Source: Microthyrium microscopicum (Eukaryota; Ascomycota; Dothideomycetes; Microthyriales; Microthyriaceae). Taken from it: a stretch of DNA of 64,000 nt. This document shows positions 11,818-15,386 of this stretch, piece by piece. Under the pieces are notes generated by a model that saw only the letters and a program-made list of their open reading frames with translations, was not told the origin of the DNA and ran no database searches. The DNA is taken from assembly GCA_010405405.1 (NCBI GenBank), contig MU004235.1, positions 1,812,157-1,876,156 of the forward strand, given 5' to 3'. The translations under genes were made by a program, and so were the position numbers. Each line of letters starts with the position of its first letter. The stretch's first letter is position 1.

Positions 11818-12286
11818 GACTAATAAAATACAATCATGACTACACGAAGAACCTTTATGTTTGCCCAGTACTGCAAAGTGCCAAAAGACACTGATATCTT
11901 TAGCGCATCCAATACAGGAATTCCAAACAGTTATCATACAAACTTGATACTTAGAAACCAACATAAGCTAATCTAGATACCTACCTAGGTAGAAGCAAGA
12001 GCAACTCCCACAAAGTAGCAACGACTTTTGAAATGCCCCAGAGTAGCATTGATAGACCCAGCAGAACCAGCAGAACGAAAATGACATCGGAAGGGTAAAG
12101 GCCAAACTCATTACCTCCTTGAACCTGCCAAGAATCCACGTATGCAGGTTCAGGACTTCGGTCTGTTTGGCGTTGTCTACGCCAACGTTGTATCTCCTCC
12201 CCTTTAACCGCCTCTACCCTCTGTGGGATAGAAGAGTTGGCCAGGGTTGGGGAGGTATGCTGGTCTTCATTGCTTACTGCTGGAAT
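11818..12286. other. Convergent intergenic spacer
   Basis: Tail-to-tail spacer between the permease (plus) and the coiled-coil gene (minus). AT-rich 3' sequence with a palindromic CTACCTAGGTAG near 11980. No gene seen. Confidence 0.5.
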
Positions 12287-14403
12287 CTATGGAGTATTAG
12301 CAGAGTCATTTTCAGCAGTTACTGGGTGATATAACTTTTGCAGGCGGAGCAGGCGGTTGTCTAACATGAGCTGTTCCTTGTCCAGTTTGAGGTTTGCGAT
12401 CTCCTTGCCAGATTCGGCCTTTTGCTTCCCCAAGTCTGTTAGCGCCTTTGCGTGGATGACCTCGAGCTTTTGAATGTGGCTATGTAGATTGGAGATCTTG
12501 GTGAGGAGAGGTTGGACGCTCATGCTGGGAGCTTCTCCACATTTTTTCTTCTCAAGGGCCTGGGATTGGTTAGTATCGTGATGTGATCAGTAGTCATGCG
12601 TTGCGTATTGACTGGGTCGTGTGATCTTTTCGTGGGAATTTGGAAAGCACAAACACACGTTATGGAAGCGGTGGGAGCCATCGAATGTGATGGCGCCCAC
12701 TACTGCTTTTGGTAATGTCGAAGATTGTCGGAAGGATTGGGATAGGGAGACACTTACATCGCGGTACATTTGGAGTTGCCCGTTGAGTTTCTTGACCTGC
12801 TCGCCTGCGGCAGCCTTGCCATCTACCAACTCTTTCTGGAGCGCTTTCCTACCCTCAGAAGAATCGAATTGTTGTAGCTTCAAAGCCTGGAATAGTCAGC
12901 AAAATGTCAAATCTGAAGGCGATGTGGTGACGACCAAAAATGTCATGGAAGCCATCGCATGTGGTGGGAGCCATCAAATGCGCTGGCAGCCACCGAAGCT
13001 TTAAACCGATTTCGAATGCCTTCAATGTGGTTGGGAGTTAGGGAATCTTACCTGCTCGAGCGACCCATTTGTCCTGCGAAGATCTGCGATTGTATTATCT
13101 TGGGCACGAATGGTCTCGGCTTGCTTTTCTCCGGCTTCTTCGAGGTCACAGATGGTCTTTTTCAAGGCCGAACTGGATTTTGTCAGTATAGATTACAACG
13201 CAACCAGAGCTAACACGCCATGTGGTGAAACCTTGAAACTCCCATCGCATCTGGTGGGAACCATCGAGTGCGATGGGAAATACAAGGTTTTTGATTTCAT
13301 CGTTTGTCTCTAGGAAATGTGGGTTGACACGGGAGAATCTTACCTAGAAACTGTTAGTATACGATTGTAATCCGAGCTAAAACGTCTGAAAAGCGCAAAT
13401 GATCTCCTCAAGGTAAAACCATAAAACACCCATCGCACTCTATGGCAGCCATCGAGTGCGATGGGGGATTTGATTGTTTTGGTCCCGTCGGATGTCGTCA
13501 AGATATTTGGTTTGGCATGGGGGGAATCTTACATCTTCTCAGAATTATACTTCTCAATATCCACCTTCTCGCTCCAGTAATGCTTCCGGATCGCGGTAAT
13601 CTCGTTCTGAGCAGTGGAGAGCTTGTGACGAAGGATCGCAATCTCCTTCTCATGAACCTCTTCCAAGGCTTCATGGGCTTCGATCGTCATCAACAGCTGG
13701 CATTTGTTAGAGAATGGGGGCAAAACTGAGGTTCGCTGGTAGGCTGGAGAATTCTGGCGTGCTCCCATGAACGTCGATAATGCCCATCGTCTTTGATAAG
13801 CAGGAGATGCTCTTCTTGCCATCACACTCGATGATGACGAGGACATCTGATGGCAAAGAAAGCATCCAATGGGAAATAACAAGTCCGATGGGGAAAACAT
13901 GACTTCCAAAATATCGCAGTAGATGGCAGCCATCAAAGCAGCTGGGAAGTAAAATTCACCGAAACAAGCTCATCCACCTCCTCCGGGATGCTCTCAACAT
14001 CATCGGAATCACTACCAATCATCTCACAATCATCGCTATCGGACCACTCTACAAGCACTGTTAGCTCAACTCCGGGATACTGAAATAGCGAAAAATGCAC
14101 AAAAGTCGAGACCCCGGATTTCGGCCATCAAATCATATGGCCAGAAACGCACTTCATCACGCCCATCGACTCTGATGGACAAGAAGAGAGCTTATCACAA
14201 AACACAGATTATGTGGAATGTTGTTTCCAGGAAGATGAAAACATACCAGATTCAGAAGACTCCGCCAACTCACAGAAGCTACCCTCCGAACTGCAGTCAG
14301 TACCAGAGACTTCCATTCTGGGCACGACGTTCAGGACCTCTGGCTCTGAGGTCCAGCTCATGGCGCTGCTTGGGCGGGAAGGAATGGTGGGGATAGATGC
14401 CAT
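12287..14403 (-). CDS. Coiled-coil protein, 310 aa, with introner-type introns
   Basis: Exons on the minus strand are 14403-14247, 14048-13960, 13696-13533, 13172-13052, 12886-12758 and 12559-12287. They total 933 nt, or 310 residues. The N-terminal 80 residues are Ser/Asp/Glu-rich and acidic (SDSDD, EEVDEL). The remainder is a long amphipathic coiled coil (EALEEVHEKEIAILRHKL, then DLEEAGEKQAETIRAQ, KKLNGQLQMYRD and HSHIQKLEVIHAKALTDL). I do not recognise a family; a structural or scaffold role is inference. Introns are 198, 263, 360 (composite), 165 and 198 nt, three to six times longer than elsewhere in the window, and all carry copies of one 37-nt palindromic module. All junctions are GT-AG with branch-point-like TACTAAC or CTGAC. 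No splice choice other than those listed keeps the coiled coil continuous. Confidence 0.8.
12658..14179 (-). repeat. Seven copies of a 37-nt intronic palindrome (introner-like family)
   Basis: Copies lie at 12658-12694, 12951-12987, 13241-13277, 13429-13465, 13818-13854, 13910-13946 and 14143-14179. All have the same orientation, align without gaps to 37 nt and lie inside introns. The plus-strand arms read CCCATCGCACTC and GAGTGCGATGGG around a second small stem ATGGCAGCCAT. Copies at 13429 and 13241 are nearly perfect; 12658, 13910 and 14143 are diverged. Flanks are also shared: donors GTAAGATTCCCC, GTAAGATTCTCCC, GTAAGATTCCCTA and GTAAGTGTCTCCC. I found no copy outside this gene by eye. Confidence 0.85.
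13173..13532 (-). other. Two abutting introns with a zero-length exon
   Basis: On the minus strand, intron A runs 13532-13344 (189 nt, GTAAGA ... CTAG) and intron B runs 13343-13173 (171 nt, GTAAGA ... CCAG). The junction reads CTAG/GTAAGATTC, so the acceptor of A touches the donor of B. Each half has its own branch point (TACTAAC; TACTGAC) and its own near-perfect copy of the 37-nt module. The flanking exons join in frame only if all 360 nt are removed. Using the upstream CAG of A instead would create a 7-nt exon with an immediate stop. Confidence 0.8.
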
Positions 14404-15386
14404 GTTTGGAAACGAGTGTTGTTACTTGGGGTAGTAGTGATTTGCTAAACGGGAAACTGGTTTGGGACAAAATGTAGAAATTGGAAGTGAGATGGGTGGA
14501 AAGGAAAGAAACGAAGAAACAACAGCAGATGGAGGGCTTATAAGGGATTAGATACCTGGAAACGTCACTTCTGGGAAATAATTGGTTTGTGTATGGTACA
14601 AATGAGCCATTAATTCTCGACTTGTTGGTGTCTACCTGTTGCTATTGTTCGTGGTTGATATTGGGTACCAAAGAACTTTGGTTCCAGGAAATTGAATGGG
14701 ATATCGTGAAATGTATAAAACTGTTGAAAAGGTAAGCATCACTTTCTAAAGTTCAAATAGAGTAAGGAACGGCTGGAAAGTTTGAAATAATTGATTCTGG
14801 TATCTGTATATCGTTTCGTTCGTGAGTTGAGCGCATCGGGTGCTTGCTTTTTAAAAATGGAGAGTGGTTTTCTCCACCTCTACCAAAGATCTGGCCTTTC
14901 AATATGATGCACAAGTAGGTAGGCTAAGAAGGATACCGGTACTACTCTGATGGTAAGGCCATGGCGTGCTGGAGTGAAGCCTGTTTACCAACCAAATTCC
15001 AATTCCCGGGCTCTTCGGTGCTCCCTGGTTGGATTATGGACATCGACAAATATCTACCAATAAATCGAAGGGAGTCAGGTGATGCTGGTTTGAGTCGACA
15101 AGTTACTCGACAGACTAATGTGGCCAGGTGTAAAACACTAGACAGCGACATAGTGGCCACAGATGGCTTGTGAATGACATGCCAGGAGTTCAACGACATC
15201 GTTGTTGAGAAGCTGGCTTTGGATGTGTTCCCTATGAGAGATTCCGGATCCCTGAGGCTTTATGGGAACCAGTCGACAGGAGGCCCATACATTTGCTTTT
15301 GTAAGATTAGTTTGGAGATTCCGGTCAGGATCAGCATGGCATCCAAAGTCATCTTCTTTGGTGCGGTGGGTCGAGTGAAATCAGGA
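14404..15386. other. Intergenic: promoter of coiled-coil gene, 3' side of FCF1
   Basis: Spacer between two minus-strand genes. The right side of the coiled-coil start is purine-rich on the plus strand. Short overlapping ORFs around 14942-15410 lack motifs. Nothing else seen. Confidence 0.5.

Follow-up and report, generated by a model that had tools for sequence, protein, structure and literature searches.

Abutting introner-like introns in a putative coiled-coil gene of Microthyrium microscopicum and the probable multi-copy family to which they belong

The window, by which we mean the whole 64-kb stretch of DNA that was analysed from the leaf fungus Microthyrium microscopicum (Dothideomycetes), carries an orphan gene for a putative coiled-coil protein of 310 aa at positions 12287..14403 of the minus strand (start at 14403, stop at 12287). 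Its six introns, in the order 1, 2, 3A, 3B, 4 and 5, measure 198, 263, 189, 171, 165 and 198 nt; the existence of these introns of 165-263 nt had been proposed earlier, and in our gene model their branch points and acceptors are present. A database search with the 310-aa product returned, at an E-value of 0.001, a single homologue, the organism's own public model P0001, and a Pfam scan of this product gave no domain match. P0001 agrees with the spliced gene at junctions 3 (where both copies are removed), 4 and 5; its start lies inside intron 2, and its end is also different.

The introns were compared with a profile of introner-like elements (ILEs) built from 41 copies, the copies of the window being deliberately excluded. 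Intron 3A (13344..13532, minus strand, as are all features of this gene given below) is matched as a full-length ILE with an E-value of 1.1e-43, and intron 3B (13173..13343), a second full-length element, with 2.7e-30. Intron 4 (12887..13051) is recognised with 3.4e-7 in its 5' part, and intron 5 (12560..12757), a decayed copy, from end to end with 5e-5; the reversed window gave no match to the profile at E-values up to 10. By this measure four of the six introns (3A, 3B, 4, and 5) are members of the ILE family. Intron 2 (13697..13959; E-value 0.06) and intron 1 (14049..14246; 2.8, not significant) are probably relics of such elements, recognised from their hairpins alone.

These hairpins had been described as a 37-nt palindromic module. 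With the 37-mer of intron 3A (13429..13465) as query, and thus 37/37 by construction, the modules score 30/37 in intron 3B (13241..13277), 26/37 in intron 4 (12951..12987), 23/37 in intron 5 (12658..12694) and 23/37 in intron 1 (14143..14179), and intron 2 has two modules of at least 22/37, the first scoring 25/37 (13910..13946) and the second 22/37 (13856..13892). The score of each intron was reached by none of 1000 dinucleotide shuffles of that intron. The predicted number of seven modules is exact: seven minus-strand places of the 64-kb window score at least 22/37, and every one falls in an intron of this gene (introns 1, 3A, 3B, 4 and 5 have one each, intron 2 has two). Their single orientation is a different matter, as it cannot be read from a palindromic 37-mer (in each intron the best antisense match scores only 1-3 lower than the sense match); for introns 3A, 3B, 4 and 5 the sense orientation is given by the whole-intron profile. 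Similarly, the proposed likeness of the donor flanks holds for three of the six introns (3A, 3B and 4 share GTAAGATTC), whereas introns 1, 2 and 5 start with GTATGTTTTC, GTGAATTTTA and GTAAGTGTCT, respectively.

According to alignments of whole introns, the 37-nt palindrome is best read as the central hairpin of a repeat that spans an entire intron, from the donor GTAAGATT through to the branch point and acceptor TATACTRACNAATTCCAG. From donor to acceptor, a copy is laid out as GTAAGATT...hairpin...GAAAAGACCATTTGGTCTTTTC...AATCTTATACTRACNAATTCCAG. Of 43 copies, 16 are of a short type of about 188 nt and 27 of a long type of about 220 nt, in which the hairpin is enlarged by additional sequence. 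The original prediction had confined the module to one gene, which is contradicted by the genome. With a 341-bp query comprising 3A and 3B, 38 matches were obtained, spread over 13 contigs; this total includes the site of the query itself and antisense matches to the hairpin. Two consensus queries, for which scoring covered 40 of 129 and 40 of 84 initial candidates, gave at least 45 and at least 54 matches; these two sets overlap each other and that of the 341-bp query. Moreover, a 22-nt pattern of the 3' end, with up to three mismatches, occurs at 121 places genome-wide versus two for the reversed control, and a 23-nt hairpin-arm pattern at 93 places versus none for the control. By these counts the copy number would be of the order of 100 or more. 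Intron 4 used as the only DNA query retrieved a single match, intron 4 itself; therefore decayed copies are overlooked by similarity search.

The window and 50 loci, 51 sequences in total, yielded 45 end-to-end copies, a full copy being a profile match from position 7 or lower to position 181 or higher. Two of the loci, L033 and L078, have donors other than GT and were excluded from later alignments. The mean identity among 41 copies is 68%, and the best pairwise value is 85%; no near-identical copies, which would mark recent activity, were found among them. The low identity suggests that the family is no longer very active, and it looks old and decaying. Locus L029 has, on its minus strand between about 1294 and 1813, hairpin portions about 135 bp apart but no full-length copy.

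Several observations indicate that the copies act as introns. The flanks were scored as in-phase reading frames that stay open on either side of the copy. For the 45 full copies the median of the shorter open flank is 51 codons, compared with 20 for random GT..AG pairs of similar length; it reaches at least 40 codons in 29 of 45 copies (17% of controls) and at least 20 codons in 40 of 45 (50% of controls). Pfam was scanned with 20 of the 43 junction peptides. A match was obtained for 13 peptides, and in 11 of them the domain spans the junction: Pyr_redox_2, GH47, AA_permease, p450, ADH_zinc_N, Acyl-CoA_dh_1, adh_short, DEAD, AA9, the C-terminal domain of NadN and MFS_1. For adh_short and DEAD the domain starts only two or three residues ahead of the junction. 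In two of the 20 peptides the domain (Amidase, Pkinase) stops short of it, and seven of the 20 have no Pfam match. The host genes belong to different Pfam families and are mutually unrelated. We infer splicing from the frames, homologues and annotated models, and intron gain from the presence of copies at unrelated sites. The proposal of an introner-like expansion is well borne out by these data: the copies are whole introns, their ends are splice sites, the genes are unrelated, and Pfam domains cross 11 of the 20 scanned junctions. A predominance of genome-wide matches outside introns, which would have pointed to an ordinary repeat, was not observed among the copies examined, four loci (L020, L033, L071 and L078) lying without a clear gene.

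The window gene is not the sole gene with many copies. A gene for an MFS transporter (locus L025, 1501-4386) has ten introns, of which seven are ILEs with profile E-values from 1e-31 to 1.1e-8 and three are ordinary. The ILEs are 153-227 nt long and the ordinary introns 48-54 nt, a comparison that concerns three ordinary introns of one gene. An MFS_1 domain spans residues 103-473 of the spliced protein, whose alignment with six homologues from other sources is gapless at the five ILE junctions that fall in conserved parts; the first and the last ILE junctions fall in variable ends of the protein. In the public model of this gene (P0122), the initial residues are read from the second ILE.

The introns 3A and 3B are in direct contact. 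Intron 3A ends with ...TTTCTAG at 13344 and intron 3B starts with GTAAGATTC at 13343, so that the two are joined as AG|GT with an exon of zero nucleotides. A second stack of this kind is located in a dienelactone hydrolase gene (locus L010, contig C4). Here a short-type copy (donor GTCAGATT, end ...TTTGCAG) comes after exon 1, and a long-type copy starting with GTAAGATT adjoins it directly. Removal of both copies gives ...EDSPFQ|GDSVAQTGP... and restores a conserved N-terminus, and this junction is gapless in all ten aligned homologues, for example DSLFKGDSIAQEGP in Tothia fuscella. The public model P0002 starts downstream of the stack and is devoid of the restored N-terminus. The case for complete removal of a zero-exon stack, be it in one step or in two, is strongest in this gene. 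A strict search for the stack pattern returned only the stack of the window; that in the hydrolase gene came from similarity. Locus L020 was considered as a third stack and rejected: the two copies on its minus strand (locus positions about 1452-1851) have one G in common, and they are not surrounded by any evident gene.

In other cases two copies are fused. Such dimers were found at five loci (L016, L026, L028, L071, and L073), and their breakpoint is nearly constant: profile position 146-147 of the first unit is joined to position 22-28 of the second. The dimers are without the branch point and acceptor of the first unit and without the donor of the second; because these inner signals are missing, each dimer is expected to behave as a single, longer intron. 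At L016, L026 and L028 the dimers have long open flanks, and L071 has no clear gene around it. With respect to common ancestry, the second halves require three label changes on the tree, a value matched by two of 500 shuffles, and their grouping into one clade is not rejected (p-AU 0.388), in a poorly resolved tree with two of 50 inner branches starred. A single ancestor for all dimers is suggested by these figures, which are suggestive only. Tightly spaced hairpin-arm matches at C5:1947601-1947767, C2:610507-610663 and C13:775916-776225 may be additional dimers or stacks.

The insertion sites were analysed by comparing 41 copies with permuted flanks, the second members of both stacks being dropped; for the base counts in the 3' exon the two remaining rows of the window and the hydrolase gene were also dropped (n = 39). 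There is no target-site duplication on average among the 41 copies (2.61 matching bases versus 2.63 in permuted flanks), which speaks against an introner of the algal type, in which the duplication supplies a splice site; two of the 41 are exceptions with 6 and 9 matching bases. The sites show a preference for G|G followed by a pyrimidine: G at exon position -1 in 33 of 41, G at +1 in 30 of 39 and a pyrimidine at +2 in 33 of 39. Both consensus sequences fold stably (z -3.3 and -3.9), and over 45 copies the mean z is -1.77, with 15 copies not below -1. No covariation beyond shuffles and slid controls was found in the hairpins (10 and 6 predicted pairs), and fold stability shows no correlation with identity to the consensus (Spearman 0.07, P 0.66). 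Hairpins without compensatory changes would fit a structure that was needed for spreading and decayed afterwards. In the consensus, GTAAGATT and AATCTTAT form a near-terminal inverted repeat that connects the donor with the stretch just ahead of the branch point. Within individual copies, 6.17 of 8 pairs are formed between these regions, versus 6.10 with the tails of other copies (P 0.24), so that pairing inside a copy does not exceed chance.

Taken together, the stretches are very probably copies of a multi-copy spliceosomal ILE family of M. microscopicum. An ordinary dispersed palindromic repeat that landed by chance in pre-existing introns could account for the matches that consist of the hairpin only, such as the tandem array at L029, and for the few copies without an evident gene, but it is highly improbable given that the ends of 45 copies are themselves donor and acceptor and that Pfam domains run across the junctions. 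We consider it just as improbable that the hairpins are a regulatory RNA or a binding site kept by selection in the introns of chosen genes: the stability of the consensus folds agrees with such a role, but the lack of covariation beyond the controls, the unrelated host genes and the absence of any Rfam match at gathering scores in 12200-14500 argue against it. A more serious competitor, though still an unlikely one, is a non-autonomous MITE-like palindromic element that jumps as DNA and whose ends double as splice sites. It agrees with the strong palindromes, with the near-terminal inverted repeat of the consensus and with the DNA-type marks of most introner families outside the ascomycetes, as given in the available text of PMC9860276. 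On the other hand, target-site duplication does not exceed that of permuted flanks, the inverted repeats are not at the very ends, and ascomycete families are reported in the same portion of PMC9860276 to have neither target-site duplications (TSDs) nor terminal inverted repeats (TIRs). Mainly because the marks of DNA transposons are absent, we lean, with modest confidence, towards spread by way of RNA. A new copy would start from an excised intron RNA, which would be inserted seamlessly at G|GY-like sites, either by reverse splicing and conversion into DNA or by joining of the intron RNA at DNA breaks. The fresh copy would be spliced out at once and would therefore be of little cost to the host. 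The window gene would have been struck repeatedly, one insertion falling exactly on the edge of a copy already present and leaving two introns side by side with no exon in between.

The origin of the stacks is a separate question. The 3A/3B stack might instead be a local tandem duplication of one intron, which is possible but rather doubtful. A sister relation of the partners is neither favoured nor rejected (p-AU 0.225 for 3A/3B and 0.319 for the hydrolase pair), so tandem duplication is compatible with the trees. The identities, however, speak against it: at 70%, 3A resembles 3B about as much as copies of the family resemble each other on average (68%), and its identity to the copy at L009 is higher (80%); the hydrolase pair combines a short-type with a long-type copy and is 66% identical. 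As the partners are about as similar as average members of the family, and as 3A is closer to the L009 copy, separate insertions are suggested. Under rough assumptions on coding fraction, copy number and site preference, 0.0004 to 0.07 exact-boundary insertions are expected at random, compared with the two seen. A bolder and less likely possibility is that introners prefer existing intron boundaries; this would produce zero-exon stacks such as 3A/3B and that of L010, whose stepwise splicing would use AG|GT as a ratchet point. Fusion would then have turned some of the pairs into dimers that multiplied as a unit (L016, L026, L028, L071, and L073, with nearly the same breakpoint).

ILEs of Dothideomycetes were reportedly described by van der Burgt in 2012. 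The family described here shares with the Dothideomycetes ILEs in the accessible part of Collemare 2015 (PMC4457414) the repeat of whole introns, the unrelated genes, the canonical splice signals and the occurrence of more than one element per gene, and differs from them in belonging to another order, the Microthyriales. In that part of PMC4457414, two ILEs in one gene are separated by 145-626 bp, whereas here pairs abut. Another difference is that the Microthyrium copies are at most 85% identical (n = 41), with no sign of recent activity. Near-identity is not obligatory for membership, because ILEs of Dothistroma septosporum also have much lower identity and may have stopped multiplying (PMC4457414, same part). 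Of the ILE features examined, near-identity is the one that the Microthyrium copies do not show; the comparison of their length with that of ordinary introns covers one gene. The ascomycete introner families in a survey of 3,325 genomes (Gozashti 2022, PMC9860276) are without TSDs or TIRs in the text available, and the Microthyrium copies likewise show no TSD on average, which also agrees with the RNA-based proposals cited there. M. microscopicum, which may be among the 175 genomes concerned there, is not named in the main text of PMC9860276.

A comparison can also be made with the [D1,2] sister stwintrons of Hypoxylaceae and Xylariaceae, for which PMC12403724, PMC8469720 and PMC9024468, in the portions available, describe proliferating pairs of U2 introns, near-terminal inverted repeats that include donor bases, and seamless insertion, all shared with our family. 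In a [D1,2] stwintron, one intron splits the donor of the other between G1 and U2, whereas here two complete introns touch; in addition, stwintron sites are reported without base bias (PMC12403724 and PMC8469720, portions available), and the Microthyrium sites prefer G|G. According to the same portions, the NTIRE-10 elements of Xylaria stwintrons resemble the GTAAGATT / AATCTTAT repeat, but their 3' arms follow the branch point. An interpretation of the stacks as [D1,2] stwintrons was rejected, since in both the window and the hydrolase gene the first intron ends with AG and the second has its own complete GTAAG. The single shared G at L020 (CTAG/GTCAG overlap) recalls [D1,2] stwintrons, but the upstream G required there is an A in L020. 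Recursive splicing in animals involves zero-nucleotide exons with juxtaposed AG|GT within very long introns. The AG|GT is alike in our stacks, which differ in being formed from two mobile introns of 171-232 nt, and their stepwise splicing is putative.

Introners are already known in other fungi, and it is the exactly abutting pairs without an intervening exon that look unusual. Among open-access titles and abstracts on introners with stwintrons, recursive splicing or zero-length exons, and on introners since 2022, no stacked introners of this kind were found, and within this scope the novelty of the stacks is provisional. Likewise, no report joining introners with the Microthyriales or with this species was found in the open-access literature.

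The findings have a practical side for annotation. Each of the three public models checked (P0001, P0002, and P0122) starts at or past an introner and differs there from the spliced model or from the homologues. Cut-and-paste accounts less easily for the exact landing of a copy on a splice boundary than does a route through the spliceosome or RNA. If the preference of introners for existing boundaries is true, it would provide a path from simple introners to long compound introns, with successive stages within one genome. Overall, introners are direct evidence for one answer to the old question of the origin of introns, and the family described here adds a fungal order on which no report of introners was found in the open-access literature.
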